A DNA stretch of 64,000 nt from Polynucleobacter finlandensis. Its GTDB lineage: Bacteria; Pseudomonadota; Gammaproteobacteria; Burkholderiales; Burkholderiaceae. The number at the start of each line of letters is the position of its first letter. The stretch's first letter is position 1. A program made the translations under genes and the position numbers. The notes beneath the pieces are model-generated. The model searched no databases and was not told the DNA's origin. It saw nothing but the letters and a program-made list of their open reading frames with translations. The stretch covers positions 1 through 64,000 of the forward strand of contig NZ_JACVPS010000011.1 of assembly GCF_018881755.1 (NCBI RefSeq), given 5' to 3'. Below are positions 9,936 to 28,184 of the stretch, piece after piece.

Positions 9936-10023
9936 CTCATAATCCTTTGGTCCCAGGTTCAAGTCCTGGTGGGCCCACCAGAAAAGCAAGCCCTCATCAG
10001 AAATGGTGGGGGTTTTGTCTTTT
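9936..10023 (+). repeat. tRNA 3'-half remnant + terminator (copy A)
   Basis: Positions 9936-9980 read as the 3' half of a tRNA: anticodon loop CTCATAA (anticodon CAT at 9938-9940), variable region, a perfect T arm (CCAGG-TTCAAGT-CCTGG), the 3' acceptor strand TGGGCCC and ACCA. No matching 5' half lies upstream. The sequence resembles bacterial tRNA-Ile2 (CAT). It is followed by a hairpin (CCCTCATC/GGTGGGGG) and TTTTGTCTTTT, i.e. the tRNA's terminator. Two decayed copies of the same unit occur at 18871-18932 and 28099-28184. Such 3' fragments are typical scars (att sites) of elements that integrate into tRNA genes. Confidence 0.75.
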
Positions 10024-10044
10024 GAGCGCCACTTTAAGTAAGGC

Positions 10045-10392
10045 TCAATTCTCTTTTAAGCGAGAACTTTTGCGCGATTTTTCGTAAAAGTGATTAGGCT
10101 TAGATTTAACCCAATGAATAAATCGTTGCATTTCAGGATGTTCTTGAAGGGCTAAGGCCGTATTTAATTTCATAGCCAATTCAGTTTCTGTAAATAGCGC
10201 ATGAATCTGGCGATGGCAGATGCGGTGTAGGTACTCGGTAGTTTTTCCACCCTTAGATTTAGGTATAAGGTGATGAGCATCTTTTTGAGATTCTGGGATG
10301 AGGCGATCGCAAATAGGGCACGCAATCTCAAGCTCTTTTGGGCATGGAGATGGCCCAAGTGTTATTAGCTTTCGGCGTATTTTTCCAATCAT
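10045..10392 (-). CDS. HNH endonuclease-like protein
   Basis: A 115-residue protein with a CPIC-x19-HH pattern (CPICDRLIPESQKDAHHLIPKSKGG), then N/Y-x-x-x-LHRICHRQIHALFT: the zinc-binding Cys/His and catalytic HH of HNH nucleases. I chose ATG 10392 so the gene does not run into the divergent TIGR03643 gene; longer in-frame starts exist up to 10575. No ribosome-binding site is obvious. Small stand-alone HNH proteins of this type are widespread in proteobacterial chromosomes and their role is unclear. It lies next to tRNA remnant A. Confidence 0.7.
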   Translation of the reverse strand: MIGKIRRKLITLGPSPCPKELEIACPICDRLIPESQKDAHHLIPKSKGGKTTEYLHRICHRQIHALFTETELAMKLNTALALQEHPEMQRFIHWVKSKPNHFYEKSRKSSRLKEN

Positions 10393-10451
10393 ATAATTTT
10401 TTTGAAATATTAATGTGCAATACAAGTTTAGTAAATAAGTCATAAACTTGC

Positions 10452-10724
10452 ATGGTGCCAAAATTCTCTCCAAAAACACTTTCTGAATCTGATATATCCC
10501 GCCTGATTGAAATGGCTTGGGAAGACCGCACGCCATTTGATGCAATCGAGAAATTGTTTGGCTTATCCGAGTCACAAGTGATCCTATTAATGCGCCATCA
10601 ACTCAAGCGAGGCTCTTTTGAGCTATGTCGTAAGCGCGTCACAGGGAGGGCGACTAAGCATGTTGCTCTTCGAAGTAAGCTAGTGGCTCGCGCATATTGC
10701 CCAACTCAGTATAAAAATAAATGA
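10452..10724 (+). CDS. TIGR03643 family protein
   Basis: A 90-residue protein with the conserved core SRLIEMAWEDRTPFDAIEKLFGLSE-type segment followed by VTGRATKHVALR, which I recognise as the TIGR03643 family. The first part looks like a helix-turn-helix (IEKLFGLSESQVILLMRHQL). Its function is unknown. The family commonly neighbours photolyase/cryptochrome genes, and here its stop codon overlaps the photolyase start (ATGA), so the two are translated together. A role in light response or DNA repair is inferred only from this link. Confidence 0.8.
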   Translation: MVPKFSPKTLSESDISRLIEMAWEDRTPFDAIEKLFGLSESQVILLMRHQLKRGSFELCRKRVTGRATKHVALRSKLVARAYCPTQYKNK

Positions 10725-12256
10725 ATTCTCTTAAAAGGTTGGTCCTGATTCTCGGGGATCAGTTAGATTTAAAAGGGGCAGCCCTTAGAGATTTTGATTT
10801 TAAGACCGATGAAGTGGTCATGATCGAGTCAATTCCAGAGGCTCAGTATGTTTGGTCCCATAAGGCAAAGATTGCTTTATTTTTATCGGCCATGCGTCAC
10901 TTTGCGAAAAGCCTGAAAGAGCTTAATTACCCGCTTGAATACATTCAGGCCTCACCTCTATCAATAGTCGCAGCTTTAAAGGAAAAGATAGCCCAAGAGA
11001 GAATTACACACTTGATCTGTGTTGAGCCGGGTGAATGGCGTTTAAAGCAGCAGCTAGAAGAACTAGCAAAGGAATTATCGATTGGGCTTGAGATGCGTGA
11101 AGACGATCATTTTTATTGCTCACATCAAGAGTTTATTCAATGGACAGCTGGCAAGAAAGAGCTAAGGCTAGAGTACTTTTACCGCTTGATGCGTAAGACA
11201 CACAATATTTTGGTGGATTCAGAAGGAAACCCTGAGGGTGGGCAATGGAATTTTGATCAAGATAATCGCAAGCCCTATCCTAAAAAGGGTCCCGGCATGA
11301 TTGAGGCTCCAGTTTTATTTGAGCCAGATTTAGTTACCAAAGAGGTTCTTGAGTTTGTGAACGCTACCTATTCCGATCATCCTGGATCGCTAGATGATTT
11401 TTGGTGGCCGGTTACCCGTGAGCAAGCCTTAGAGGCCTTGGAGTATTTTGTGGAATACCGCCTCAGAAATTTTGGGATATTTCAGGATGCAATGTGGACT
11501 GATACCCCGCTTGGTTGGCATTCGATTCTTTCGAGCTCACTGAACCTAAAGTTACTCAACCCACGTGAAGTGATTAATGCTGTTTTGCAGGCATGGAAAA
11601 AATACTCCTTAGATCTTTCCACGGTTGAGGGATTTATTCGGCAAATATTAGGTTGGCGTGAGTTTGTCAGGGGCATGTATTACCTTGATATGCCTCGGAT
11701 GGCTAAAGATAATTACTATGGCCACCAAAGATCTTTGCCAAAATGGTATTGGACAGGGAAAACCGATATGGCTTGCATGAAAGATGCCATTGGTCAAACA
11801 TTACGATATGGCTATGCCCATCATATTCAGCGCTTGATGGTTACTGGCAACTTTGCTTTGTTGTCGGAGATACTGCCATCAGAAGTATGTGATTGGTATT
11901 TGGCCATTTATGTTGATGCGATTGAGTGGGTAGAGCTTCCTAATACCGCTGGCATGGCTCTATTCGCAAATGGTGGGCGCTTCACTAGTAAGCCCTATAT
12001 TGCCAGTGGTGCTTATATAAAGCGCATGAGTAATTATTGCGACTCCTGCAAGTACAAGCCAGATGTTCGCTTTGGAGATGCCGCTTGTCCCATTACCACT
12101 TTGTATTGGAATTTTTTAATTAAACATCGCAGTCAGTTTGAGTCAAGCCCACGTGCAAGGCTGATGACAGCAAACCTTAAAAGAATTAGTGATGAAGACC
12201 AGAAGTCGATCGTGGAGCATGCCGATCAACTCTTGAATAATCTGAACAATCTATAG
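10721..12256 (+). CDS. FeS-type photolyase/cryptochrome (PhrB/CryB group)
   Basis: A 511-residue flavoprotein of the deoxyribodipyrimidine photolyase-related family (FeS-BCP group). It has the N-terminal Rossmann domain (LVLILGDQLD, about residues 5-140) and a C-terminal helical FAD-binding domain (about 220-500). It has the segments GWREFVRGMYY, YGYAHHIQRLMV and SNYCDSCKYK...ACPIT, where the last three cysteines plus an upstream one (TDMACM) would bind a 4Fe-4S cluster. Characterised members repair (6-4) photoproducts using blue light. Co-encoded with TIGR03643 and DUF2256 proteins. An enzyme or a light sensor is possible; repair is more likely. Confidence 0.85.
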   Translation: MNSLKRLVLILGDQLDLKGAALRDFDFKTDEVVMIESIPEAQYVWSHKAKIALFLSAMRHFAKSLKELNYPLEYIQASPLSIVAALKEKIAQERITHLICVEPGEWRLKQQLEELAKELSIGLEMREDDHFYCSHQEFIQWTAGKKELRLEYFYRLMRKTHNILVDSEGNPEGGQWNFDQDNRKPYPKKGPGMIEAPVLFEPDLVTKEVLEFVNATYSDHPGSLDDFWWPVTREQALEALEYFVEYRLRNFGIFQDAMWTDTPLGWHSILSSSLNLKLLNPREVINAVLQAWKKYSLDLSTVEGFIRQILGWREFVRGMYYLDMPRMAKDNYYGHQRSLPKWYWTGKTDMACMKDAIGQTLRYGYAHHIQRLMVTGNFALLSEILPSEVCDWYLAIYVDAIEWVELPNTAGMALFANGGRFTSKPYIASGAYIKRMSNYCDSCKYKPDVRFGDAACPITTLYWNFLIKHRSQFESSPRARLMTANLKRISDEDQKSIVEHADQLLNNLNNL

Positions 12257-12264
12257 GGTTGGAG

Positions 12265-12420
12265 ATGAGCACTTCTTTTAAGGGTAATAAAAGTTTTCTA
12301 CCAAGAAAAATTTGTGTTGTCTGTAAAAAAGAAATGACGTGGAGAAAGTCGTGGGCCAAAAACTGGGAATCGGTAAAATATTGCTCAGATGCTTGCAGGA
12401 AAAAAGCGCCTACAGTGTAG
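12265..12420 (+). CDS. DUF2256 zinc-finger-like protein
   Basis: A 51-residue protein easily missed because of its size. It contains KICVVCKKEMTWRKSWAKNW then VKYCSDACRKK, i.e. CxxC-x(n)-CxxxC around the TWRKxWxxxW core that defines DUF2256. Four cysteines probably bind zinc. A ribosome-binding site (GGAG) precedes ATG 12265 and the gene begins 8 bases after the photolyase stop, so it is the third gene of the photolyase operon. The family's function is unknown; it is often found beside or fused to photolyase-related genes. Confidence 0.85.
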   Translation: MSTSFKGNKSFLPRKICVVCKKEMTWRKSWAKNWESVKYCSDACRKKAPTV

Positions 12421-12493
12421 ATATAAATGGCTACTAGCTTTCTTCTAAGATATTGTTTCGCTCGAGCAAGAGTCAAAACGAAAGAAAAAAATC

Positions 12494-13393
12494 CTAGTAC
12501 CGCAGTTGAAATTTCAACGCGGATTTTATTGTCTGAAAATGAATATCAACCGTAGACTCAATATTCTTTCCATACCCTCCTGCCATTGAGAGGGCTAAAG
12601 GTATTTGATGTCCTATTGCATATTGAAAGACTGTTTCATCCCGTCTTTGTATCCCATTTTTAGTCAGTTTTAATCTTCCTAGCCGATCATGTTCATGAGG
12701 ATCTGCGCCTGCTAAATAAATAATGAAATCTACTGAAAAGCGCGCCTTGAGTTTTTCAAGAGAATCTTCAAGTGCATTCAGATAAGTTTGATCATCACAA
12801 CCATCAGGCAAATCAACGTCTAGGTCGCTTTGCTCCTTAGTGAAGGGAAAGTTATTTTGACCATGAATTGATAAAGTAAAAATAGAAGAATCATTTTTTA
12901 AAATAGAGGCTGTCCCATTGCCCTGGTGAACATCTAAATCAATCACTGCAATTTGAAGTTTGGGATTAATTTCTTTTTGTAAGGCCCTAGCAGCAATTAC
13001 AGAATCATTAAAAACGCAGAAACCACTTCCTTGATCTCGATAAGCGTGGTGTGTGCCACCAGCTAGATTGGCTGCGATGCCCTCTTTAAAGGCTGTTTTG
13101 GCTGCGGCGACGGTAGCGCCGGAAGATCGACGCGAACGCTCAACCATTTGTTCGCTCCAAGGAAAACCTATTTCTCTTTGTTCCCCGGGACTTAGATTGC
13201 CCTGAAGTACTTTAATCAAATAACCTGGATCGTGGGCATATAGAATTTGTGTATCAGTTGCACTAGGCGCCTCAAGGAGTTCAATTTCTGGAACTGTAGC
13301 GACAAGATCATGCAAACGAGAGTACTTTTCCATTGGAAAGCGATGCCCAGAAGGCAATGGTAAGACAAAATGATCGGTATAAAACGCCTTCAC
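12494..13393 (-). CDS. Histone-deacetylase-like amidohydrolase
   Basis: A 299-residue arginase/deacetylase-fold protein. Visible motifs: GGTHHA (catalytic His pair, about residue 112-117), DLDVHQGNG (zinc ligands Asp and His, about 152-160), AGADPHEHDRLG (third zinc ligand Asp, about 230) and a C-terminal SMAGGYG. These define class II-like bacterial HDAC/AcuC/acetylpolyamine hydrolases. It would remove acetyl or acyl groups from lysines, polyamines or related amides. Its start overlaps the end of the upstream DUF2237 gene by 4 bases (ATGA), so they form a two-gene operon. Confidence 0.85.
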   Translation of the reverse strand: MKAFYTDHFVLPLPSGHRFPMEKYSRLHDLVATVPEIELLEAPSATDTQILYAHDPGYLIKVLQGNLSPGEQREIGFPWSEQMVERSRRSSGATVAAAKTAFKEGIAANLAGGTHHAYRDQGSGFCVFNDSVIAARALQKEINPKLQIAVIDLDVHQGNGTASILKNDSSIFTLSIHGQNNFPFTKEQSDLDVDLPDGCDDQTYLNALEDSLEKLKARFSVDFIIYLAGADPHEHDRLGRLKLTKNGIQRRDETVFQYAIGHQIPLALSMAGGYGKNIESTVDIHFQTIKSALKFQLRY

Positions 13394-13764
13394 TCTACAA
13401 CTGCAAATTGCTCTAGCGTTTGAAGGGGGACAGTTTTAAGGGCGCTAATGTGGGTACTCTCCAACTTAATTTGAGGCGCACAATCGGCTTCATGTGCTTC
13501 AGCCCAACGGTTAATGCATAAGCACCATTGATCGCCTGGTAGTAGGCCAGGAAAGGCAAATTCGGGTCTTGGGGTAATAAGGTCATTGCCTTTTTCTAGG
13601 CTAAATTGCAAAAACTCCTTTGTAACAATTGCGCAGACCAGATGTCTGCCCAGATCGTTATCATCTGTTTTGCAGCAACCATCCCGAAAGAATCCAGTTA
13701 AGGGATCAAAAGAGCAGGGGACGAGAGGCTGCCCTAAAACATTGAGATCAACTTCTTTAGGCAT
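13390..13764 (-). CDS. DUF2237 family protein
   Basis: A 124-residue protein that matches DUF2237 along its length: NVLGQPLVPCSFDPLTGFFRDG, CCKTDDNDLGRHLVCAIVT, GNDLITP and FPGLLPGDQWCLC, ending with ATHISAL-like sequence. Five conserved cysteines and a His are compatible with metal binding, but no activity is known to me. It is translated together with the HDAC-like protein (4-base overlap). Confidence 0.85.
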   Translation of the reverse strand: MPKEVDLNVLGQPLVPCSFDPLTGFFRDGCCKTDDNDLGRHLVCAIVTKEFLQFSLEKGNDLITPRPEFAFPGLLPGDQWCLCINRWAEAHEADCAPQIKLESTHISALKTVPLQTLEQFAVVE

Positions 13765-13903
13765 CTGGTTTTTATTTGATTGGTTGGATTTAAAAGAAGT
13801 TTATTTTAGATGTTATTTGAATCCAAGAGCGCTCTCTAGAAATGTTGGGTTTTTGGGGTCTTTGAAAGCGATTGCTTTTTGGTTTTTGTCAGAATTAAAA
13901 GGT

Positions 13904-13918
13904 AATTCCTATAGAATT
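13904..13918. promoter_or_regulatory. 15-bp inverted repeat upstream of SDR gene
   Basis: AATTC-CTATA-GAATT, a 15-bp inverted repeat 53 bases before ATG 13972. Its ATTCCTATAG core is identical to one half of the 20-bp palindrome at 63661-63680. It may be an operator; chance similarity cannot be excluded. Confidence 0.3.
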
Positions 13919-13971
13919 AATTGGGCAATCAATAACTTTGTTAAATAAGCTTCAATTTTTAGAAAAGCATA

Positions 13972-14778
13972 ATGAATATAGACTCCCCTGATAAACAACG
14001 CGTAGCGGTAGTAACGGGTGGCGCGCGAGGAATTGGGCTTGCAATTGGTGAATGGTTTTTACGCCATCAGTACAGGGTTGTTCTCTTAGATATTGATGGC
14101 GCTACGCTTGACGCAACTGTTGAACGGATCGGCCAAGCAAATCAGGTTTTGGGTATTCATTGTGATGTTTCCAATCCAGAGCAAGTAAGTCGTGCAGCTG
14201 ATGAAGTAATTTCCAAGTTTGGGCATGTTGATGCTTTGGTAAATAACGCTGGAGTGGCTGTATTTAAACCTATCCTGGAGACTTCCTATGAGGAATGGCG
14301 CACGGTACTAGGAACCAATTTAGATGGTGCATTTTTATGTTCCCAGAAATTTGGTAGTTTGATTGTCAAAAATGGTGGGGGTGCAATCGTCAATATCGCC
14401 TCCATCTCTGGCCTTAGGGCGAGCACTTTACGGGTGGCTTATGGCACAAGCAAAGCCGCTTTAATTCAGTTAACTAAGCAATACGCCGTAGAGCTAGGTA
14501 ATGTGAATGTCCGAGTGAATGTGATTGCGCCAGGGCCAGTAGATACCGAAATGGCTAAGCTTGTGCATAGCGTTGCAATACGCTCGGATTATTACGATGC
14601 TATTCCTTTGGGCCGTTATGGCACCCCCGAGGAAATGGCCAATACAGTTGGCTTCCTATGTAGCGATGCCGCTACATTTATTAATGGCCAAGTCATTGCT
14701 GTAGATGGTGGTTTTGAAGCATCTGGCGTTGGATTGCCTACCTTACGTCGTAATATGGCAGCCCCCGGTGGAGATTAG
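13972..14778 (+). CDS. Short-chain dehydrogenase/reductase
   Basis: A 268-residue classical SDR: TGGARGIGLAIG cofactor loop (about residues 15-26), NNAGVA (about 91-96), the catalytic Ser in NIASISGLR and YGTSKAAL (Tyr-x-x-x-Lys, about 157-161), and a C-terminal IAVDGGF. An acidic residue after the second strand (LDIDG) predicts NAD over NADP. It oxidises or reduces a hydroxyl/keto group; the substrate is unknown. It is followed by a TRAP transporter 120 bases downstream, suggesting it acts on the imported organic acid or sugar acid. Confidence 0.8.
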   Translation: MNIDSPDKQRVAVVTGGARGIGLAIGEWFLRHQYRVVLLDIDGATLDATVERIGQANQVLGIHCDVSNPEQVSRAADEVISKFGHVDALVNNAGVAVFKPILETSYEEWRTVLGTNLDGAFLCSQKFGSLIVKNGGGAIVNIASISGLRASTLRVAYGTSKAALIQLTKQYAVELGNVNVRVNVIAPGPVDTEMAKLVHSVAIRSDYYDAIPLGRYGTPEEMANTVGFLCSDAATFINGQVIAVDGGFEASGVGLPTLRRNMAAPGGD

Positions 14779-14898
14779 CCTGCTGGTTTTCCCTTGATTT
14801 TTCCTGTTTAATTAAAATCTGACCGTATATTAAGAGTATTGCCAAATGAGTATTTGGCGGTGCTAAAAGTGTATTAAAAATAATCCAATGGAGACAAG

Positions 14899-15912
14899 AT
14901 GACATTTACAAGACGTGACTTTATGAAGCATGCTGGTATTGCAGCATTACCTTTAGTGGCTGGCAATGCCTTTGCACAAAGCGCAGAGTTTAATTTAAAG
15001 TTTGGCAGTAATTTGCCTGCTACGCATCCATTAAATATTCATGCATATAAGATGGCGTCCAAAATTAAAGTGGAGACAAAAGGGCGCGTTGATATTCAAG
15101 TATTTCCTTACAATCAATTGGGAAATGATACGGATATGCTGTCTCAATTGCGCTCTGGTGCGTTGGACTTTATGACTTTGTCACCATTGATTTTGGGCTC
15201 GCTGGTGCCGCAAGCACAAATTAATGGCGTAGGTTTTGCATTTAAAGATTACAAGCAGGTATGGGCTGCAATGGATGGCGAGTTGGGTGCCTATGTACGT
15301 CGTCAAATCGCTGCGACTGGCACTATCTTTGCATTCGATAAGATCTGGGACAACGGCTATCGCGAAGTCACTAATAGTGTGCGCCCAATCAATAAGCCAG
15401 AGGATTTAAAGGGGATTAAGTTGCGCACCCCTCCTGGCCCAATGTGGGTCTCTTTATTTAAAGCTTTAGGCGCATCTCCAACACCATTAAATTTCGCTGA
15501 AGTTTATTCAGCGCTTCAATCTAAAGTAGTCGATGGCCAAGAGAACCCTTTAGCTATTATTTATACTGCCAAGCTATACGAAGTGCAAAAATATTGTTCG
15601 CTGACAAACCACATGTGGGATGGTTATTGGTTCATGGGTAATAAAAAATTATTTGAGCAGTTGCCCCCAGACTTGCAAGCCATCGTGACTCGTAATGTTG
15701 CGGAATCCGCTGTGCTTCAAAGAGCTGATGTACGTAAGATGAATGATGGCCTACAGGCAGAATTGCAGGCAAAGGGTATGGCAATTAACCCCACTAACGC
15801 AGACCCATTCCGTGAAAAATTAAGACAGGCTGGTTTTTATTCGGAATGGAAAGCGAAATTCGGGGACGAAGCATGGTCTTTGCTTGAGAAATACACGGGC
15901 AAGCTTGCGTGA
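14899..15912 (+). CDS. dctP: TRAP transporter substrate-binding protein (DctP)
   Basis: A 337-residue periplasmic binding protein with a twin-arginine-type signal (TRRDFMKHAGIAALPLVAGNAFA, residues 3-26), so it may be exported folded by Tat. The DctP fold is shown by the GSNLPATHPLN start, the PEDLKGIKLRTPPGPM segment (ligand Arg) and the TPLNFAEVYSALQSKVVDGQENP segment typical of the family. It captures an organic acid for the fused permease encoded immediately downstream (4-base overlap GTGA). Ligand not deducible. Confidence 0.9.
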   Translation: MTFTRRDFMKHAGIAALPLVAGNAFAQSAEFNLKFGSNLPATHPLNIHAYKMASKIKVETKGRVDIQVFPYNQLGNDTDMLSQLRSGALDFMTLSPLILGSLVPQAQINGVGFAFKDYKQVWAAMDGELGAYVRRQIAATGTIFAFDKIWDNGYREVTNSVRPINKPEDLKGIKLRTPPGPMWVSLFKALGASPTPLNFAEVYSALQSKVVDGQENPLAIIYTAKLYEVQKYCSLTNHMWDGYWFMGNKKLFEQLPPDLQAIVTRNVAESAVLQRADVRKMNDGLQAELQAKGMAINPTNADPFREKLRQAGFYSEWKAKFGDEAWSLLEKYTGKLA

Positions 15913-17741
15913 GTTTAGTTGGTGTTATCTCGGGTGTGGAAGCAGTTGTTGCCAAGGTAGTTGAGTGGCTCGCTGCTTCTCTTGTGCTGGCTTGTATTGG
16001 GATTTTATTTTCTGGAGTGGTGGGGCGATATTTACTGAATGCTCCATTAGTTTGGTCTGATGAATTAGCCTCCATTTTATTTCTATGGCTCGCAATGATG
16101 GGTTCTGTCATTGCCTTAAAGCGTGGCGAGCATATGCGCATGACGGCATGTATCAGCAGATTAAGCGCGAGCAAAAGAGCATATCTAGAGGCTTTTGGTA
16201 TTGCGGCCTGTTTTTTCTATCTCGTCATCATCCTACGTCCTGCATTTCACTTTGCCCTTGAAGAGATTATTGTTACCACGCCTTCGCTTGAGATCTCAAA
16301 TGCTTGGCGCGCTGCGGCTATTCCGGTAGGCATTATTCTGATGATGTTCTTCTGTTTGTTTCGGCTAGGTAGAATTGCAAGCTTAAAAGTAGTTGCCTTC
16401 AGCGTACTGTTGTTTCTGTTGGGATTCGGCATTTTGCATTACTTCTCGCCTTGGTTTGCCAATCTTGGCAAATACAATTTATTAATATTTTTTGTTGGGG
16501 TGGCAGGTTTTAGTATTTTGGCGGGAGTGCCAATTGCTTTTGCATTTGGTCTGGGCACAGTCGCTTATTTGGGTTTGAGTACCCACATGCCTATCTCCGT
16601 AGTCATTGGCCGTATGGATGAGGCCATGTCACACATGGTCTTGTTAGCGGTCCCCTTATTTGTATTTCTTGGTCTCTTGATGGAGATGACTGGTATGGCT
16701 AAGGCAATGATTGCCTTTTTAGCTTCTTTGCTTGGCCATGTGCGCGGCGGCCTTTCTTATGTGTTGGTTGGTGCCATGTATTTGGTGTCGGGCATATCTG
16801 GATCTAAGGCAGCCGATATGGCTGCAATCGCACCAGCCTTGTTTCCCGAGATGAAGCGCAATACGCCGCCCGGCGAGTTAGTTGCATTATTGGCGGCTAC
16901 TGGGGCGCAAACTGAAACTATCCCTCCTAGTCTGGTATTAATTACGATTGGATCCGTAACAGGGGTTTCAATTGCCGCACTCTTTACAGGCGGCATGCTA
17001 CCTGCATTTATTTTAGGGCTCATTTTGTGTTTATTGGTTTGGTGGCGCAATCGTCATGTCCAGATTGAAAATGTTGCGCGTCCAAAGATTTTGGCAGTGT
17101 CTAAGCTTTTCTTGATAGCCCTTCCAGCACTGGCTTTGCCATTTGTCATACGTGCTGCGGTGGTGGAGGGTGTAGCTACAGCTACCGAGGTCTCTACGAT
17201 CGGGATCGTATATGGATTGATTTGTGGAATTGTGGTTTACCGAAAATTTGATGTGAAGCGCATCCTACCGATGTTGATCGATACCGCTTCTTTATCAGGA
17301 GCCATTTTATTGATCATTGGCGCCGCTACCGGAATGGCTTGGGGATTGACCCAGTCTGGGTTCTCTCAAGTGGTAACGCAAATCATGGCCGACCTTAATG
17401 GTGGTCCAAACTTATTTTTGCTTATTTCAATTTTGGCGTTTGTGGTCCTGGGCTCAGTTCTAGAGGGCATTCCTGCAATCGTTCTATTTGGCCCCCTCTT
17501 ATTTCCAGTGGCGCGTCAGCTAGGTATTAATGAAGTGCACTATGCAATGGTTGTCATTCTATCTATGGGCATCGGTCTGTTTGCACCACCTTTAGGGGTT
17601 GGTTATTACGCTGCATGTGCGATTGGCAAAGTAAATCCTGATGAAGGCGTCAAACCAATCATGGGCTACTTGTTTGCATTACTGATTGGAATTTTGGTAA
17701 TTGCCTTTGTGCCTTGGTTATCCACTGGATTTTTATCTTGA
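15909..17741 (+). CDS. TRAP transporter fused permease (DctQM)
   Basis: A 610-residue membrane protein. Residues about 1-165 are a four-helix DctQ domain (LLNAPLVWSDELASILFLWLAMMGS is its signature) and 185-610 a 12-helix DctM domain with SGSKAADMAAIAPALFPEM and ALLAATGAQTETIPPS. Fusions of the two permease subunits occur in a subset of TRAP systems. It uses a sodium or proton gradient to import the ligand delivered by the DctP protein. The start is GTG overlapping the dctP stop; the stop overlaps the next gene's TTG start. Confidence 0.9.
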   Translation: MSLVGVISGVEAVVAKVVEWLAASLVLACIGILFSGVVGRYLLNAPLVWSDELASILFLWLAMMGSVIALKRGEHMRMTACISRLSASKRAYLEAFGIAACFFYLVIILRPAFHFALEEIIVTTPSLEISNAWRAAAIPVGIILMMFFCLFRLGRIASLKVVAFSVLLFLLGFGILHYFSPWFANLGKYNLLIFFVGVAGFSILAGVPIAFAFGLGTVAYLGLSTHMPISVVIGRMDEAMSHMVLLAVPLFVFLGLLMEMTGMAKAMIAFLASLLGHVRGGLSYVLVGAMYLVSGISGSKAADMAAIAPALFPEMKRNTPPGELVALLAATGAQTETIPPSLVLITIGSVTGVSIAALFTGGMLPAFILGLILCLLVWWRNRHVQIENVARPKILAVSKLFLIALPALALPFVIRAAVVEGVATATEVSTIGIVYGLICGIVVYRKFDVKRILPMLIDTASLSGAILLIIGAATGMAWGLTQSGFSQVVTQIMADLNGGPNLFLLISILAFVVLGSVLEGIPAIVLFGPLLFPVARQLGINEVHYAMVVILSMGIGLFAPPLGVGYYAACAIGKVNPDEGVKPIMGYLFALLIGILVIAFVPWLSTGFLS

Positions 17742-18430: not shown

Positions 18431-18463
18431 ACTATTAAGGGTCTAATTTTTTAGGAGTCCTAG

Positions 18464-18862
18464 ATGTTATTAGTTACCTCAATCATTGCTTCTCTATTAA
18501 CTATCATCTTTGTAAAACTTTCCTTTGCCGTCATTGGCCTAAGAAGAAAGAATAAGGTTGGATTGGGAAGTGGCGGTCATGAAGATCTTGAGAGAGCCAT
18601 TCGTACCCAAGGTAACTTTGCTGAATATGTGCCATTTGGGATCATCCTGGTTGCCTGTCTTGAGTTAAATGGTGCTCCTTGGTGCTTGGTTGCTATTCCC
18701 GGTATCGCGTTGATCATTGGGCGCTTGATTCATGCCAAAGGAATGAATATTCCGCCACCGGATTTCAGTCAGCGTGTTTTAGGGATGAAGTTTACTTTTG
18801 GAACGCTGACTGCATTAATTGCATTGAACTTGGGTTGGTCTTTGTACCGATTGCTTGGCTAG
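18464..18862 (+). CDS. MAPEG family membrane protein
   Basis: A 132-residue protein with four hydrophobic segments. The MAPEG motif ERAIRTQGNFAEYVPFGIIL (about residues 43-62) contains the Arg and Asn/Glu used to bind glutathione in eicosanoid/glutathione-metabolising enzymes. C-terminal RLIHAKGM and FTFGTLTALIALN also match. In bacteria these proteins are probably glutathione transferases or peroxidases of the inner membrane. A ribosome-binding site TTAGGAG precedes the ATG. Confidence 0.85.
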   Translation: MLLVTSIIASLLTIIFVKLSFAVIGLRRKNKVGLGSGGHEDLERAIRTQGNFAEYVPFGIILVACLELNGAPWCLVAIPGIALIIGRLIHAKGMNIPPPDFSQRVLGMKFTFGTLTALIALNLGWSLYRLLG

Positions 18863-18932: not shown

Positions 18933-18941
18933 CTACATCAA
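18928..18941. promoter_or_regulatory. Perfect FNR/ANR box before sulfatase operon
   Basis: TTGAT-CTAC-ATCAA, an exact match to the FNR/ANR consensus, centred 105 bases before the first sulfatase ATG. A TAGTAT candidate -10 at 18981-18986 would put the box near -59, close to a class I position. Confidence 0.55.
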
Positions 18942-20524: not shown

Positions 20525-20556
20525 GCAGTTGCGTTAACTACATCATGGGGATTGAA

Positions 20557-22074
20557 ATGTTTTTACAAAGATTACTGATTGGATTCTTGTCTATTTCAGT
20601 GGCTGCGCCTGCAGTATTTGCCCAGTCAACTCCTGCATCCAATCAAAAGAAGCCGAACGTAGTTTTCATTCTTGCGGATAACGTCGGTTATGGCGACATG
20701 GGTCCTTATGGTGGCGGTGAATTACGTGGTGCTCCTACACCGCGCACAGATGAGTTGGCAAAGAGTGGGCTGAAGCTGACCCAGTATTTGGTAGAGCCAG
20801 CATGCACACCATCTCGTGCTGCATTAATGACCGGGCAATACTCTATTCGCAATGGTTTGTCACTTGTTGCAGAGTCAGGTACTCCTAGTACTTTGCCAGG
20901 CAAAGCCTACACAATGGGTCAATTATTTAAAGATGCAGGTTACGCAACCGCAATTTTTGGAAAATGGCATTTGGGCGCATCACCTCAGAGTTTGCCTGGT
21001 GCTCACGGATTTGATCAGTATTACGGTTTACCGCCGGATGTCTCTTGGGACTCTGCGACCTACGTTGCACAAGCAATACAAACACATTCCTATTCAAATG
21101 TACCCGACAAGGTTTTGTATGAAAAGGGGCCTTGGATTAGTCAGCAAAAGGGAAATGGACCTCTTCAGCGTGTAAAGCCATTTACGATGGAAGTCAGAGC
21201 AGAGATTGATAATGAATTGACTCAAAAATCAATTGCATTCATGAAGCAAGAAAATGCAGCTGGCAAACCATTCTTTCTGTATCTACCATTTTCGATGGGG
21301 CACTCTCCAAATCTATCTTCTAAAGAATTTGCAGGTAAGTCACGCATTGGTCAGTATGGAGACAAATTGATGGAGGGGGATTACCACGTTGGCCAAATCA
21401 TCGATGCCCTCAAAGAAATGAATATTGAGGGCAATACTATTTTGGTTTTTGCCTCTGATAATGGTAGCACTGGGCAATATATGATGACTTATGATCGATT
21501 AGGTCTTGGTGCTCCTGACATGGGATCTAATGGCCCATTTCGAGGGGACTTAGGCGAGGCTACTGAAGGCGCTGTTCGAACTTTTTGCTTTATTCGCTGG
21601 CCTGGTCATATCGTCCCAAATACCACTTCATATTCCATGTTTTCGATCATGGACTTTATGCCAACCTTTGCCGCTATCTTAGGCGCTAAGCTACCAACAG
21701 ATCGAGCCATTGATGGTGTGAATCAATTGGATATGCTTACTGGTAAGAGCAAAACAGGTAATCGCGAACATTTAATGTCATTTATTGGTGCGGACTTAGT
21801 GGCAGTTCGCTGGAAGCAGTGGAGAATGTATTTTAGGGATATGAATCGTACGGGCACTGGACAGCAAATGCTTGGCGGCATAGCTGCTAATTCAGTTCCA
21901 ATGTACTACCCAAAGGTTTACAACATTGAAATGGATCCGCATGAAGACTTACAGTTAGTAAATTATGAATCAATTTCAGTTAACGCATTCAAAGCAATTC
22001 AAGAGTATCTTGCCTCGGTTAAGAAGTTCCCTAACCCGCCACCTGCTAACTTAACGAACTTTAATCAGCGTTAA
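20557..22074 (+). CDS. Periplasmic arylsulfatase (Cys type), second copy
   Basis: A 505-residue paralogue of the preceding sulfatase, with a signal peptide (about 1-23), FILADNVGYGDMG (metal site), CTPSR at residues 83-87 (Cys83 the formylglycine precursor), GKWHLG and ASDNGS. I chose ATG 20557 since GGGGA lies just ahead; ATG 20545 is also in frame. The 20-base gap to the previous stop indicates one transcript. Two diverged copies suggest either two sulfate-ester substrates or a recent specialisation. Confidence 0.9.
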   Translation: MFLQRLLIGFLSISVAAPAVFAQSTPASNQKKPNVVFILADNVGYGDMGPYGGGELRGAPTPRTDELAKSGLKLTQYLVEPACTPSRAALMTGQYSIRNGLSLVAESGTPSTLPGKAYTMGQLFKDAGYATAIFGKWHLGASPQSLPGAHGFDQYYGLPPDVSWDSATYVAQAIQTHSYSNVPDKVLYEKGPWISQQKGNGPLQRVKPFTMEVRAEIDNELTQKSIAFMKQENAAGKPFFLYLPFSMGHSPNLSSKEFAGKSRIGQYGDKLMEGDYHVGQIIDALKEMNIEGNTILVFASDNGSTGQYMMTYDRLGLGAPDMGSNGPFRGDLGEATEGAVRTFCFIRWPGHIVPNTTSYSMFSIMDFMPTFAAILGAKLPTDRAIDGVNQLDMLTGKSKTGNREHLMSFIGADLVAVRWKQWRMYFRDMNRTGTGQQMLGGIAANSVPMYYPKVYNIEMDPHEDLQLVNYESISVNAFKAIQEYLASVKKFPNPPPANLTNFNQR

Positions 22075-22087
22075 GAGAGAATGTTGA

Positions 22088-23056
22088 GTGCATAGCCAGA
22101 TTTGCAAAAGAAGTTTAGGAATTTTTTCTAAACTTCTTTTGATTTCAATCAGCTTCTTTTCGTCACAATCAGTATTGGCGGATGAGGGCGGCGTTCCTTT
22201 TTGGATGTCTGGCCAATATGCCAGCATGGCAGCCGTGCCATCCAACCCTGGTTGGTCATTGGTATTAATGCCTTACGTTTATAGCGGCAGTGCAGATAAG
22301 TCAAAAACTTTTCAGCACGGCGAGAGTGTTAATGCAGGATTAAGTACAAGGGAATCGATTGCCTTATTTCAGTTGGGTTATTCCGCTGAAGAAAAGATAC
22401 TCGGCGGTCAACCATATGTTGGAGTAGGTTGGGGTCCTGGTGCAAATACCACCACGGCATCTGCAAGCATTGCCAGCCCTAATGTCGAATTCAATCGCGC
22501 TAATTCTGTTAACGGTAGCACTGATATTTACCCCCTTGCCAGTTTGGCGTGGAACAAAGGTAATAATAATTTCATGACCTATGTGACTGGCGATATTCCA
22601 GTAGGTACATATAGCGCAACCAGTCTTTCGGCTATTGGTATCGGGCATGCTGCAATGGATGCCGGTGGGGGCTACACTTATTTAAATAATACGACTGGCC
22701 TTGAGTTTTCTGGTGTACTGGGTGCCACTTATAACTGGATGAATAACCAAACCAACTACAAGAATGGTGTTGACTCTCACTTGGACTGGTCTATTTCTCA
22801 ATTTTTGTCGCAAAACTGGCAAGTGGGTATTGCAGGATATGCTTACTACCAACTCACTGGGGACTCTGGTAGCGGGGATAAGATGGGCGCTTTTAAGTCT
22901 CGCGTGGCGGCCATTGGCCCACAAATTGGCTATCTATTTAATATTGGTAAAAAACAGGCTTATATCAATTTGCGTGCTTATAAAGAGTATTGGGCGCAGA
23001 ACCGAGTTGAAGGGTATGCCACGATTGCAACCATCAGCATCCCACTAGGAAAGTAG
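22088..23056 (+). CDS. Outer-membrane channel (SphA/MetA-pathway family)
   Basis: A 322-residue protein with a signal peptide (about 1-31, cleavage after VLA) and alternating beta-strand pattern to the C-terminus, which ends in an IATISIPLGK strand. The start of the mature part, GGVPFWMSGQYASMAAVPSNPGWS, is typical of the 'phenol MetA-degradation' porin family (PF13557, SphA-like), proposed to pass hydrophobic or aromatic substrates. Between the sulfatases and their activator it probably admits the sulfate ester or exports products. It starts at GTG 22088, 13 bases after the sulfatase stop. Confidence 0.75.
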   Translation: MHSQICKRSLGIFSKLLLISISFFSSQSVLADEGGVPFWMSGQYASMAAVPSNPGWSLVLMPYVYSGSADKSKTFQHGESVNAGLSTRESIALFQLGYSAEEKILGGQPYVGVGWGPGANTTTASASIASPNVEFNRANSVNGSTDIYPLASLAWNKGNNNFMTYVTGDIPVGTYSATSLSAIGIGHAAMDAGGGYTYLNNTTGLEFSGVLGATYNWMNNQTNYKNGVDSHLDWSISQFLSQNWQVGIAGYAYYQLTGDSGSGDKMGAFKSRVAAIGPQIGYLFNIGKKQAYINLRAYKEYWAQNRVEGYATIATISIPLGK

Positions 23057-23060
23057 TCAT

Positions 23061-24173
23061 ATGAAGAATGTACAAGGTCGGGTGTTATGGATTGCAGTTC
23101 TCTTCGCTTTAGGGCTAGGCGCATATTTGGTTTGGAGTCATTTCATATCCAAACCTCAACAAGCGATTCCAGAAATCCGTTTAGGCGATGGTGTGAATGG
23201 CCCCAAAGGAATGGCATGGATTCCTGGGGGAGAATTTTTAATGGGCAGCAATCATCAAAAATCACAAGCCAATGAGAAGCCTACACACAAAGTGAAGGTA
23301 TCAGGATTTTGGATGGACACCACCCATGTCACGAACGATCAATTCGCCCAATTTATTAAAGAAACCCATTACAAAACAACTGCTGAGCAAGTTCCAGATT
23401 GGGAAACGATTCGAGTGCAGTTACCGCCTGGAACACCTAAGCCGCCTGCTTCAGTATTTGTACCTGGGGCGATGGTTTTTGTGGGCACGAAGGCTAAAGT
23501 GAATCTCAATGATTACTCCCAGTGGTGGGCCTATGTTCCTGGCGCTAATTGGCAGCATCCCACTGGACCGCAAAGCAATATTGAGGGCAAGGGCGATCAC
23601 CCTGTAGTGCAAGTTAGCTACGAAGACGCTTTGGCTTATGCTAAATGGGCTGGCAAAAGATTGCCTACAGAGGCGGAGTGGGAGTTTGCGGCTCGTGGTG
23701 GCTTAAACCAAGCAACCTATGTATGGGGTGATCAATTAGAGCAACAAGGTAAGCTGCCCGCCAATATTTGGGATGTGAAAAAACAAGCCTTCCCAGTGGT
23801 GAGTCCTAAAGCTGGCGGCGCAGTTGGTACGAGCGGAGTGGGAACATTTCCTCAAAATGGCTATGGCCTCTTTGATATGACGGGCAATGCTTGGCAGTGG
23901 GTTGCTGATTGGTATCGTGCTGATTATTTTGCGATGCAAGCTAAAGAGCATGGCAATAGTGTGATTGACAATCCCCAGGGGCCTAGCAGCTCATATGATC
24001 CGGATGATTACGGTGTTCCGCCCAATGCTCCTAAAAGAGTCATACGTGGCGGATCATTTTTATGTAATGAAGATTACTGCCAATCCTATCGTCCAAGTGC
24101 GCGTCGTGGAGCGGATCCATTTAGCCCAATGTCCCATTTAGGCTTTAGATTAGCAAAAGATAGCGAGAAGTAA
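23061..24173 (+). CDS. Formylglycine-generating enzyme (sulfatase activator)
   Basis: A 370-residue FGE/SUMF1-family protein. An N-terminal helix (about 8-25) anchors or exports it. The FGE domain starts at GMAWIPGGEFLMGS (about 51) and has KRLPTEAEWEFAARGG, GYGLFDMTGNAWQWVADWY and a C-terminal GGSFLCNEDYCQSYRPSARRG. The two active-site cysteines of copper-dependent FGE are both kept (Cys335 and Cys340). It oxidises the cysteine of CTPSR in the two upstream sulfatases to formylglycine. Its placement in the same operon makes the sulfatase system self-sufficient and oxygen-dependent for maturation. Confidence 0.9.
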   Translation: MKNVQGRVLWIAVLFALGLGAYLVWSHFISKPQQAIPEIRLGDGVNGPKGMAWIPGGEFLMGSNHQKSQANEKPTHKVKVSGFWMDTTHVTNDQFAQFIKETHYKTTAEQVPDWETIRVQLPPGTPKPPASVFVPGAMVFVGTKAKVNLNDYSQWWAYVPGANWQHPTGPQSNIEGKGDHPVVQVSYEDALAYAKWAGKRLPTEAEWEFAARGGLNQATYVWGDQLEQQGKLPANIWDVKKQAFPVVSPKAGGAVGTSGVGTFPQNGYGLFDMTGNAWQWVADWYRADYFAMQAKEHGNSVIDNPQGPSSSYDPDDYGVPPNAPKRVIRGGSFLCNEDYCQSYRPSARRGADPFSPMSHLGFRLAKDSEK

Positions 24174-24303: not shown

Positions 24304-25704
24304 ATGAATAGAGACAATTTCCTATCCTCGGTAGACGCTTGGTTTAAGCAAGGCGAGTTACAAGAGGTTCTAGCCAAACGTATTGCGTATAAAACTGAGG
24401 GTGACTTGCCCGAAGCCCCGCAAGAGCTTTGGGATTATTTGAAAAATGAAATCATTCCATATTTAACGGGAATGGGTTTTATCTCTACGGTATTTGATAA
24501 CCCTTTGCCGGATGCCGCTCCAATCTTAGTGGCAAGATTAATTGAGGACGTGAATTTACCGACCCTATTAATTTATGCCCATGGTGATGTTGTCAATGGA
24601 CAAGATTCACGTTGGCAAGAGGGTTTAAATCCGTGGGTGCTATCAGTTGATGGTGAGCGCTGGTATGGTCGCGGCTCAGCTGATAACAAAGGCCAGCACA
24701 CGATCACTTTTTTTGGTCTGGCAAAAGCTCTAGAGGCTCGTAGTGGAAAGCTAGGTTACAACGTCACCGTCTTAATGGAGATGGGTGAAGAGGCTGGTAG
24801 CCCTGGTTTGGCAGAGTTTTGTGAGAACAATAAAGAGTTACTCAAAGCCGACTTGTTAATTGCAAGTGATGGCCCCCGTATCAATGCGGAAACACCAACC
24901 ATTTTTTTAGGATCAAGAGGGCTTGTCAACTTTAGCTTGCTGGTGAAAGCTCGAGATAAGGCGTACCACTCTGGCAATTGGGGCGGGGTGCTTGTGAACC
25001 CAGCTACTCGCCTGGTCCATGCGTTAAGTAGTTTGATTGATGCTCGTGGCCGAATTTTATTAGATGGTATTAAAGCTCCCGCTGTGGATTCCCTTATAAA
25101 AGAGGCGTTGAAGTCAGTTACAGTTGGCAATGGCAAGGGTGATCCTGAAATAGATCTTAGCTGGGGGCAGTCAGAGTTAACTTCTGCTGAGCGACTATTT
25201 GCAAGCAACACCCTGGAAATTTTAGCTCTTGGATCTGGCCAATCGGAACGCCCTGTTAATGCTATCCCGTCGCAGGCTATCGCACACTGTCAATTGCGCT
25301 TTGTTGTGGGAACGGATTGGCAGAATTTATTGGAATACGTTCGCGAGCATTTAGTGGCTTCAGGTTTTGATGATGTTGTTGTGAAGGTGAATGCACATAC
25401 ACCAGCTACACGCCTGGATTTGAAAAATCCTTGGGTGAATTGGGTCAAGTCATCGATAGAGAATACGACTGGTAAGCAAGTCACTGTTTTGCCCAATCTT
25501 GCGGGCTCCTTGCCAAACGATGTATTTGCCGATATTTTGGGTTTGCCAACGATTTGGGTGCCACATTCTTATCCAGCTTGTAATCAGCATGCTCCCAATG
25601 AGCATATGCTGAAATCTGTCGCCGCCGAGGGTCTGCAAATGATGGCTGGCATCTTTTGGGATTTGAGTGAAAAATCTTCTACAGCAAATTCTTCTTGGGA
25701 TTAA
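24304..25704 (+). CDS. M20-family metallopeptidase
   Basis: A 466-residue M20 peptidase. The zinc site is visible: YAHGDVV (His93), GRGSADNKGQ (bridging Asp127) and MGEEAGS (Glu162 base, Glu163 ligand), with a lid/dimer domain inserted at about residues 205-330 (FLGSRGLVNFSL). The late ligand is in the HAPNEHM segment near 445. It cleaves a dipeptide, carbamate or N-acyl amino acid in the cytoplasm; the family is broad. No signal peptide. It is followed closely by a Bug binding protein, so peptide- or acyl-amino-acid-like uptake is conceivable. Confidence 0.85.
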   Translation: MNRDNFLSSVDAWFKQGELQEVLAKRIAYKTEGDLPEAPQELWDYLKNEIIPYLTGMGFISTVFDNPLPDAAPILVARLIEDVNLPTLLIYAHGDVVNGQDSRWQEGLNPWVLSVDGERWYGRGSADNKGQHTITFFGLAKALEARSGKLGYNVTVLMEMGEEAGSPGLAEFCENNKELLKADLLIASDGPRINAETPTIFLGSRGLVNFSLLVKARDKAYHSGNWGGVLVNPATRLVHALSSLIDARGRILLDGIKAPAVDSLIKEALKSVTVGNGKGDPEIDLSWGQSELTSAERLFASNTLEILALGSGQSERPVNAIPSQAIAHCQLRFVVGTDWQNLLEYVREHLVASGFDDVVVKVNAHTPATRLDLKNPWVNWVKSSIENTTGKQVTVLPNLAGSLPNDVFADILGLPTIWVPHSYPACNQHAPNEHMLKSVAAEGLQMMAGIFWDLSEKSSTANSSWD

Positions 25705-25723
25705 TATTTTGAGCGCTTCAAAA

Positions 25724-26701
25724 ATGACCGTAATGAAAAATCTAAAACAGTGCTATTTGGGCGCAATTATTTTTGCGATGAGCGCAGTGGTGCAAGCTCA
25801 AGTATGGCCAAGTAAGCCCCTGAATTTAATTGTCCCGTTTCCTCCAGGTGGTGCTACTGATATCTTAGGCCGGGTGCTTTCAGAATCTTTGCCGTCAAAG
25901 TTAGGTCAGCCAGCCGTTGTTGAAAACAAGCCAGGTGGCTCAACCGTTATTGGGGTGATGGCTGCACTTCGCGCCCCTGCGGATGGCTATACAGTTTTGG
26001 TATCGGCGAGCAGTAGCTTTGTTGTATTGCCGGCGTTGAGATCTAATCTGCCTTATGACGTTGAAAAAGATATCTACCCAATCAATCTTTCTGTGACAAC
26101 GCCTTTGGTAGTCGTCACTTCTGCAGATAAGCCTTATATGAAGCTTGCTGATTTAATTGCGCAGGCGAAGGCTAAACCCAAATCTTTGAGATATACCAGT
26201 TATGGACCAGGGACCACACCACACTTAGCAACTGAGATTTTTGCAGGTGCTGCGCAAATTGATGTTGAGCCCATTCCATACAAAGGTAGTAGCGATTCCA
26301 TTTTGGCTTTAATGCGTGGCGATGCAGATTTTGGTTTAGAGACTATTGCAGCAGCCGGGGCCCAAATTAAAGCGGGTAAATTACGCGCACTTGCCGTGAC
26401 GTCTCCATCCCGCTCACGTTTTCTTCCTGAGGTTCCAGGTTTGGATGAGTTACATTTGCCGGCAGCAAATTTTGAGGTTTTTTATGGTGTTGCTTTATCT
26501 GCATCAGTTCCCAAGCCCATTGCTAATAAGTTTGCAAAGGCCGTATCGGAGGCCATGAATACGCCAGAAGTGAAGGAAAGAATGTCGGCTCAATCGCTAG
26601 AGATTTCCAATAAAGGGCCTGAGGCCATGGCCGCTTTTATGAAGGCGGAGATCACACGCTTTAAGACTTTGAATAAGCGGCTGAATATTCAGCTGGAGTA
26701 A
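25724..26701 (+). CDS. Bug/TctC-type binding protein 1
   Basis: A 325-residue periplasmic binding protein of the tripartite tricarboxylate transporter family. Signal peptide about 1-25; WPSKPLNLIVPFPPGGATDILGR (phosphate/carboxylate-binding loop after the first strand), ENKPGGSTVIG and PYKGSSDS are family hallmarks. ATG 25724 is chosen; an upstream frame inside the M20 gene is unlikely to be used. No TctA/TctB membrane genes are nearby. Paired with the M20 peptidase gene (19-base gap). Ligand is likely a carboxylate, but unproven. Confidence 0.85.
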   Translation: MTVMKNLKQCYLGAIIFAMSAVVQAQVWPSKPLNLIVPFPPGGATDILGRVLSESLPSKLGQPAVVENKPGGSTVIGVMAALRAPADGYTVLVSASSSFVVLPALRSNLPYDVEKDIYPINLSVTTPLVVVTSADKPYMKLADLIAQAKAKPKSLRYTSYGPGTTPHLATEIFAGAAQIDVEPIPYKGSSDSILALMRGDADFGLETIAAAGAQIKAGKLRALAVTSPSRSRFLPEVPGLDELHLPAANFEVFYGVALSASVPKPIANKFAKAVSEAMNTPEVKERMSAQSLEISNKGPEAMAAFMKAEITRFKTLNKRLNIQLE

Positions 26702-26740: not shown

Positions 26741-26761
26741 TTAATTTTGAAAATGATCATG

Positions 26762-27916
26762 TCACTTCGTTTTTATAATAGTGACCCAGTTTGCCCCTTT
26801 ACCTCCAGGGACTCTCTCAATCAGATTTAGTTCACCCGTGGATTGATTGATTGAGTAAAGCGAAACCTTATCTGACTTTTGACCAGAAGCAACTAAAAAT
26901 TGTCCGCTAGGATCAATATTGAAACCTCTAGGCATTTCCTCTGTAGGGACAGTAAACAGATACTTTACTTTGCCAGTTTGTGGATCTACTTCAAAGCCGC
27001 TTAGTGTGCCCTTGGTTCTCTCTGATGTGTAGAGAAACTTACCGTTTGGCGTCAATTTGATTTCGGCAGAGAAGATCATGTTCGAGTCATCAAAAGCAGT
27101 CGCCTCTGGAGATCCGGTTGGAGGTCTTGGTCTTCCAGGGACTAGCTTGGAGTCACTTGGGAGGCTTGAAGTGGCTTGAAGTTGAGTTAAGCCCCCTGAT
27201 TTGATATCCCTAGAAAAGACAATAACTTCTCCAGTCATCTCTGTGATGACGTAGGCAAACTTATTATCAGCTGAGATAACAATATGTCTCGGACCTTGTT
27301 GCTTTTGAAGGGCTACCGAGCTGGCTGTTTCTGAGAGAGGCTTGGGTTGAGACGCATTAAAGGTGTGGATTTTGATTTCATCTGTACCTAGTTGGGGCAC
27401 ATACACAAACTTATTAGACTGATCAAAGACGATTGAGTGAGGATTCTTCCCCCCGCTTGGAAACGCCTCTGCTGGAACGGGGTTGATATAGCCATTGGCC
27501 TGAATTTGATTAACGCTATTGTTATGGCCGCCAAAAGAGGTTGCCAATAACCACTTACCAGTTTTATCGATAGAAACGTTTACCATGCTGTCGGCCAATG
27601 GGATTGCGCCTGTCCACTTTAGTTGACCAGTACCTTGATCAATTTGATACATGTATAAAGAAAACGGCTTAGAACGCACAGAGGCATATAAATTTTTTCC
27701 ATCTGGTGAGGTAGCCATTGGCATCACAAATTTTCCAGCAGGAAAACGACCCACTGAATTTAAGTGTGGGCTTGACCCTGCTATGAGTTCATAAGCTGAT
27801 ATATCAGCATCGTCAATATTGGAAATATAAACATAGGTTCCACAATATGCGCTTGTTGCCATCGCTAGACTAGTTATTGCAAGTGCCAGATTTCTAAAAA
27901 TCGCTTTCTTTTTCAT
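26762..27916 (-). CDS. Secreted beta-propeller (lactonase-like) protein
   Basis: A 384-residue protein with a signal peptide (about 1-26) and a seven-bladed propeller of the 6-phosphogluconolactonase/YVTN type: repeats such as SPDGKNLYASVRS, SIDKTGKWLLATS, IVFDQSNKFVYVPQLG, ISADNKFAYVITE, KLTPNGKFLYTSERTKG and NIDPSGQFLVASGQKS. An N-terminal extension to 27964 has no support; ATG 27916 has GGGAGA just upstream. Unlike cytosolic phosphogluconolactonases it is exported, so its substrate (lactone or other) is outside the cytoplasm or it is only a binding scaffold. Confidence 0.8.
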   Translation of the reverse strand: MKKKAIFRNLALAITSLAMATSAYCGTYVYISNIDDADISAYELIAGSSPHLNSVGRFPAGKFVMPMATSPDGKNLYASVRSKPFSLYMYQIDQGTGQLKWTGAIPLADSMVNVSIDKTGKWLLATSFGGHNNSVNQIQANGYINPVPAEAFPSGGKNPHSIVFDQSNKFVYVPQLGTDEIKIHTFNASQPKPLSETASSVALQKQQGPRHIVISADNKFAYVITEMTGEVIVFSRDIKSGGLTQLQATSSLPSDSKLVPGRPRPPTGSPEATAFDDSNMIFSAEIKLTPNGKFLYTSERTKGTLSGFEVDPQTGKVKYLFTVPTEEMPRGFNIDPSGQFLVASGQKSDKVSLYSINQSTGELNLIERVPGGKGANWVTIIKTK

Positions 27917-27960
27917 GCTGTCTCCCTTTTTATTTTTTTCACTATTGAATAATAGATATT

Positions 27961-27981
27961 GCAATAGTATTTTTGTATTGC
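27961..27981. promoter_or_regulatory. Inverted repeat upstream of propeller gene
   Basis: GCAATA-N9-TATTGC, 45 bases before the propeller gene start on the minus strand. It is a possible operator; the regulator is unknown. Immediately beyond, a weak CACC/GGTG hairpin with six T's (27982-28001) follows on the plus strand. The stretch 28002-28098 contains a C-rich tract (about 28063-28086) that I cannot assign. Confidence 0.3.
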
Positions 27982-28098
27982 CACCTTCTTTGGGTGTTTT
28001 TTACTGCTTTATTTAAATAATAACTTTTCACCCTTAAGCTCACTATACATAAAACTGCGTGCCACCGCCGCCGGACCGCACCCCCCTTGTTTATAGAG

Positions 28099-28184
28099 CT
28101 CTATCCTACGGTCCCAGCTTGAAATCCTGGGGATTCGTCAGAAAAGCAAACTCCCTCCTAAGTGGTGGGGGTTTTGTCTTTTGT
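28099..28184 (+). repeat. Decayed tRNA 3'-end + terminator (copy C)
   Basis: This aligns with copy A over its whole length. GGTCCCAG matches, a T-loop-like TTGAAAT (the invariant C of TTCRA is lost) stands between partly paired arms, then TCAGAAAAGCAA and GTGGTGGGGGTTTTGTCTTTT follow exactly. The acceptor end is mutated and the anticodon region shortened, so it is a pseudogene fragment. With copies A and B it brackets two segments of about 9 kb each. Confidence 0.65.

Follow-up and report, generated by a model that had tools for sequence, protein, structure and literature searches.

The locus and its three repeats

The window, the whole stretch of DNA analysed here, comprises bases 1–64000 of the 99,654-base contig C11 of a Polynucleobacter finlandensis draft genome (G000; 2.28 Mb, 41 contigs). 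Three same-strand repeats, A, B and C, are located near 9.94, 18.87 and 28.10 kb, amid genes that we name by their Pfam matches. To the left of A lie an outer membrane efflux protein, an HlyD-type protein, an ABC ATPase and MacB/FtsX (4818–9670, plus strand). To its right follow an HNH endonuclease-like gene (minus) and a DPRP photolyase-related gene (plus), together at 10045–12256 and found elsewhere in relatives, a histone-deacetylase-like and DUF2237 module (12494–13764, minus), a module of a short-chain dehydrogenase (SDR) and a TRAP transporter (13972–17741, plus), which stay together in the relatives G018, G026 and G060, and a DUF2461 and MAPEG module (17714–18862, plus), which is the left neighbour of B. 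The right side of B is occupied by two sulfatases, an outer-membrane-type protein and FGE (19040–24173, plus), a block found 84% identical in G031. It is followed by an M20 peptidase and TctC module (24304–26701, plus) and by a lactonase (26762–27964, minus), beyond which C is reached. An iron alcohol dehydrogenase and a thioesterase (28264–29876, plus) are found to the right of C.

A contig-wide local alignment with the tRNA half and terminator of A as query yields scores of 220 for A, 73.5 for C and 57 for B, above a noise level set by the next forward match (29), the reverse complement (32, at A itself) and the reversed control (25). The three tRNA-end repeats reported in the preliminary description are thus real, being the sole three places above noise on the contig, all on one strand. 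Searched against its own genome, the A region finds C at E 5.3e-11 and B at E 1.7e-7. ARAGORN detects no tRNA gene in the whole window.

Copy A is a fusion of three parts, all on the plus strand. A conserved element end of about 180 bp (9762–9942, from alignment and profile) with the terminal sequence TCTGCTCTCATAA comes first. It is followed by a tRNA 3' half that runs from the 7-nt anticodon loop CTCATAA to CCA (9936–9980), and by a terminator (9981–10045) that is in place in G026 too. The tRNA half equals nucleotides 33–77 of the intact gene on contig C15 in every letter (45/45). The description of A as a clean 3' half of a CAT-anticodon tRNA with its terminator is therefore borne out, and its place among three decayed copies is not. 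A also reaches further than had been described, with the element end preceding the tRNA half.

Copy C consists of a worn tRNA half (28095–28139, plus; 31/45 identities in gapped global alignment) and a terminator (28140–28191, plus). Copy B (18872–18938, plus) reaches 27/45 in the same kind of alignment, which is not clearly above chance, and we therefore read it as a terminator with perhaps, and at most, the tRNA acceptor end. In both copies, the hairpin of the terminator is the best-kept part. The view of B and C as mutated versions of the A unit consequently holds for C, with its tRNA half and terminator, and applies to B in little beyond the terminator. No element end is found beside B (526–998 of 1000 shuffles). 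Upstream of C, a worn right end is hinted at by two ends (2 and 8 of 1000 shuffles), with 101–128 of 1000 for three others.

The intact tRNA gene and further copies in the genome

The intact CAT tRNA gene that the preliminary description presupposed is present on C15 (G000:C15:9268–9341; Rfam, 73.6 bits), where it adjoins rpoD. In line with the Azoarcus intron case, this gene would be a tRNA-Ile2 and not a tRNA-Met. C11 would lie downstream of this gene, where the draft is gapped. The A-region query finds seven places in the genome: A, B and C, one on C18, two on C23 and the 45 identical bases on C15. The extra copies comprise one on C15 with 34/45 identities, one on C23 with 39/45 and a second element end, and one on C18 that has the terminator and a tRNA part of 26/45. 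The worn C15 copy lies just 5.4 kb from the tRNA, whereas A is perfect, which argues against simple outward ageing.

On C23, a unit between two right ends (216–17599, L010) contains genes for a cytochrome bd oxidase, a Crp-type regulator and RND efflux. Related bd-oxidase genes occur in the hotspots of G014, G016, G024 and G031.

Element ends and terminators across relatives

The length of the right end is 174–181 bp in 19 of 22 listed cases, the other three being partial; 19 of the listed loci had also served to train the profile. In the 19 near-complete right ends, CTCATAA is followed by a tRNA half in ten cases, by a CC[AT]GAGA end in six, by GAAAGAAG in one and by worn sequence in two. At E<1e-4, the 27 stretches examined contain no minus-strand match to the tRNA half, the terminator or the right end. 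Because the orientation of each stretch had been set from its tRNA or its match, this strand result carries little weight for C18, C23 and the second stretch of G060.

The same 27 stretches allow us to weigh the reading of the repeats as a generic family of intrinsic terminators with no tie to integration. The well-kept hairpin of B and C would fit such a family, as would the 10 of 31 terminator matches that have no recognised tRNA half beside them. The remaining 21 of 31 abut a tRNA 3' half, by a profile that had B and C among its training sequences, and this usual joining argues that the terminator is not generic, in line with the preliminary description. The count of seven A-region places in the whole genome speaks against a generic family as well. 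Outside the genus, among 120 family genomes, matches are confined to the tRNA half, with one extending 24 bases further. We regard this reading as the least probable of those considered here; it is rejected for A and unlikely for B and C.

A genus-wide hotspot downstream of the tRNA gene

A-region matches are found in 59 of 61 genomes of the genus (its own included) and in 51 of 51 good ones, a count in which the tRNA gene alone may supply the match. For 18 single-contig genomes, 60 matches are listed, from which 19 functional tRNA copies were set aside by hand to leave 41 fragments. Of these, 31 (in 12 genomes) lie on the strand of the tRNA and at most 86 kb downstream of it. The probability of this clustering by strand and distance is about 5e-38, a figure that assumes independence and serves as a guide only. 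The ten fragments outside this zone or strand count against the element model. Among 22 stretches from relatives, the cargo downstream of one rpoD-tRNA locus differs, a comparison at the level of species and not of strains. A, C and, probably, B belong to this genus-wide, tRNA-anchored accretion hotspot, as one fresh and two worn scars.

Preservation in relatives is better in distal than in proximal fragments (Spearman +0.69, n=20; within-genome pairs 3 versus 2 with 4 ties), in a count that omitted the G000 sequences, the second G060 stretch and one G012 copy. Decay thus does not rise with distance from the tRNA, a result that counts against the element model, and the idea that distal copies are older is not supported.

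The exact 28-base junction pattern occurs in 44 stretches of the genome_contigs collection, which come from Polynucleobacter, uncultured beta-proteobacterial sequences, Burkholderiales/Burkholderiaceae MAGs and one Thermoflexus-labelled MAG. In the latter (L162), the junction is found at the extreme end of what is perhaps a misassigned contig. A phage origin was weighed with two exact junction patterns (28 and 20 bases), neither of which matches any viral contig, in a search that diverged versions would escape.

Changed flanks and mosaic intervals

The flanks of the repeats change between genomes. For A, the terminator and the HNH and DPRP genes follow in the same order in G026, where the upstream sequence is different. 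In G004, G014, G033, G035 and G060, homology to the right side of A begins after the terminator and there is no terminator match, which counts against the element model. In the case of C, G004 has the lactonase of its left side and, about 430 bp further on, a terminator copy. Its right side occurs in G014, where a tRNA-half remnant precedes the iron alcohol dehydrogenase and thioesterase by 120 bp, 371 kb from the G014 tRNA. In relatives, the neighbours of B lie apart, and no repeat accompanies them; MAPEG in G060 has a terminator copy at a distance of about 2.8 kb. Since the flanks switch at the repeat for A and C, these two are junctions, and B is unproven. The breakpoints in synteny that the preliminary description expected at each repeat are thus found at A and C.

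That description had further proposed that exactly two 9-kb elements, A–B and B–C, integrated in turn and were then fixed. Three same-strand copies spaced about 8.9 and 9.2 kb apart, with different cargo, do suggest as much. Each interval, however, holds several modules whose neighbours or order differ in relatives: in 24 genomes, and among the matches listed, this applies to HNH/DPRP, deacetylase/DUF2237, SDR/TRAP, DUF2461/MAPEG, the sulfatases, M20/TctC and the lactonase. These modules are partly non-independent, with HNH/DPRP and deacetylase/DUF2237 within about 8 kb of each other in G058, in changed order. In G060, HNH/DPRP, SDR/TRAP and the deacetylase are found within 16 kb, again reordered. 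Such recurrence lets much of A–B appear as reshuffled, hotspot-distal background and not as one element. M20/TctC of B–C is found in G004 inside one unit, which is bounded by the tRNA on one side and by right end, tRNA half and terminator on the other. As judged by sequence comparison, both intervals are mosaics of several modules. With no element end beside B and at best a hint of one beside C, two successive 9-kb integrations are highly improbable, and the segments as first described do not stand. At the inner module boundaries of both intervals, the contig-wide scan finds no scar above noise, a null result that also counts against the element model.

In G031 (826001–846000, L093), an integrase is found about 1.1 kb away from the counterpart of the sulfatase cluster at window positions 19149–24160 (84% identity).

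Occupied and empty sites in relatives

In G031, an orphan tRNA 5' half terminates in CTCATAA and continues with GAAAGAAG. Compared with G031, G012 has 22,509 bp inserted at the core, with flanks identical at 299 of 307 and 378 of 400 positions, against 231 of 400 in the control. The insert starts with a tRNA 3' half and finishes with a right end. A further right end inside it indicates at least two units.

Integrases

None of the genome's 13 Pfam integrase matches lies on C11, which weighs against the element model, and the near border of the A unit is off the contig. The Pfam matches of 30 window ORFs that span 0.3–29.9 kb include no integrase, and none of the relaxase and conjugation genes of an integrative conjugative element. 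The claim that no integrase remains is thus correct for C11 and not for the genome, since C23 encodes a 207-aa integrase-family protein beside another right end. In the hotspots of six relatives (G014, G016, G026, G027, G031 and G032), we find a tyrosine recombinase of 190–222 aa. Against the NCBIfam integron integrase model (cut-off 265), the G031 recombinase scores 42 bits and the C23 protein 19.5, so neither is an integron integrase by this model. A larger integrase of 448 aa is present at 96–100% identity in 8 of 37 genomes searched, that of the query included, and all eight genes have the hotspot tRNA, or the arm described below, no more than about 10 kb away. This protein matches no Pfam family at E 0.01, is an integrase in PHROGs at 1.1e-31 and finds nothing useful among solved structures; its best relative in G000 has 37% identity. 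Its identity across seven genomes is 96–98% at the protein level. Compared with G031, its DNA is 88.0, 87.4 and 85.6% identical in G014, G016 and G058, where the end of rpoD is 88.4, 83.5 and 93.0% identical; these values give no clear sign of a recent horizontal transfer of this gene. Enzymes of these kinds may be the ones that move the ends described above.

The 190–222-aa recombinase has no usual N-terminal part. In G016, G026 and G031, it is followed by a convergent protein of about 300 aa, for which the G016 and G031 versions have no Pfam match.

Origin of the repeats

We consider it likely that A and C, and probably B as well, are scars left at attachment sites by genus-specific, cargo-carrying integrative elements. 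The enzyme, the circular form and the order of events are what we infer. A tyrosine integrase would act on two copies of the 7-bp core CTCATAA, one in a circular element and the other in the CAU tRNA gene beside rpoD or, alternatively, in a tRNA fragment already there, and recombine them. With a replacement 3' half and terminator brought in by the left end of the element, the tRNA would usually stay whole, and the displaced half would become joined to the right end of about 180 bp. Repeated rounds would give same-strand arrays of metabolic modules. Recombination, deletion and integrase loss may then wear such arrays to mosaics with scars, as in the window. Serial integration into one CAT tRNA gene, as first proposed, is thereby retained in kind, with the intact gene in place and the same ends around cargo downstream of it in relatives.

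Copies of the tRNA half and terminator could also have served as passive homology for ordinary homologous recombination that swaps modules, with no integrase acting now or for B and C. A conserved terminator whose flanks change on one side or the other, a contig free of integrases and mosaic intervals all agree with such passive exchange. It does not explain why homology at A sets in at the anticodon loop, behind a right end whose length is constant, and it leaves the insertion at the 7-bp core in G012 versus G031 and the integrases in the hotspots of relatives unaccounted for. We judge it unlikely and retain integrative elements as the preferred reading.

A substitute tRNA and a group I intron

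In G010, G014, G016, G031 and G037, the orphan tRNA 5' half is followed by an arm of about 190 bp and a complete tRNA, an arrangement absent from G000. G010, G016, G026, G031, G032 and G037 have a working tRNA that is interrupted after CTCAT and before AA of the core, and an orphan 5' half beside rpoD. G023 has the split tRNA and no orphan half, and G014 the orphan half and an unsplit tRNA. Three of four intron loci submitted to Rfam are called as group I intron, the exception being G010. With matches of any length counted, the intron query hits 32 of 61 genomes, and a query with the arm that follows the orphan half hits 24 of 61. By coordinates, 14 strong arm–intron pairs are neighbours in 11 genomes, and a weak arm match lies beside the intron in four more. 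G000 has neither intron nor arm. At least 17 fragments start inside the intron, seven of them near query position 170, where three are at or within two letters of a sequence end, and five near 206. Starts that fall mostly at two places suggest that other elements may target the intron, which speaks against simple shielding of the tRNA. Loci with such fragments include L123, L126, L122, L125, L114, L027 and L043.

From these arrangements we tentatively propose a docking platform, which we hold to be possible, at less than even chances. An element would have taken over the CAU tRNA, often with an intron-split core, and would have left beside rpoD an orphan 5' half whose core is intact. Modules would be gained and lost at this orphan half or at tRNA fragments with the working tRNA untouched; the window would represent the intron-free version. 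Support for docking comes from one genome pair, G012 and G031, and this counts against the proposal, as do the fragments that start inside the intron.

In G027 (L076, oriented 1961–7800), about 5.7 kb separate the orphan 5' half from a second rpoD 3' end with a complete tRNA, and an integrase lies within this interval.

Relation to known systems

Alteromonas (PMC4119200) and, as fGI-2, Methylophilaceae (PMC10872708) have additive flexible genomic islands at tRNA genes. These islands share with the present hotspot a conserved tRNA target, cassettes that are added or missing, repeats of the tRNA 3' end and metabolic cargo. Here, a direct repeat of the tRNA 3' end is present at the far border of the island (copy A, 45/45). 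Variable cassettes at one tRNA locus, by which additive islands are recognised, occur among relatives at the species level. Different from those islands are a repeat that begins at the anticodon loop, a right end of about 180 bp, several recognisable left ends and, in some relatives, a substitute tRNA. Tycheposons, as described in PMC10872708, likewise start at a tRNA (there tRNA-Met CAT), use a tyrosine recombinase and carry metabolic cargo. Of the tycheposon features (tRNA border, tyrosine recombinase, 4–200 kb of cargo), the border and recombinases, of a type that may differ, occur in relatives, and no recombinase is found in the window.

The relatives with the GAAAGAAG arm resemble tRNA-dependent lysogeny, in which, according to PMC10865867, a tRNA is broken and a complete substitute is brought. 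Unlike in that system, the arrangement is not found in G000, cargo modules take the place of a phage, the substitute may carry a group I intron and the two junction patterns are not in viral contigs. Archaeal intron shielding (Randau and Soll, as described in PMC3293823) is similar in that the attachment core of a tRNA is interrupted by an intron, which an element may have brought along. In contrast, the present case involves a group I intron of bacteria, which itself seems to serve other elements as a target. The literature searched contains nothing that joins Polynucleobacter and a group I intron. By title and start of abstract, it contains nothing on the hotspot, a paper on Polynucleobacter islands (PMC5244307) lying outside this scope. 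The process is of a known kind; the element family and some tricks of the relatives look new.

A target core, a right end and left ends are now defined for a main gene-flow hotspot of a widespread freshwater genus. With core and ends defined, a rule can be used to excise modules from genomes and to follow them from species to species. If the docking platform is true, culturable bacteria could be used to test the protection of attachment sites by tRNA introns.
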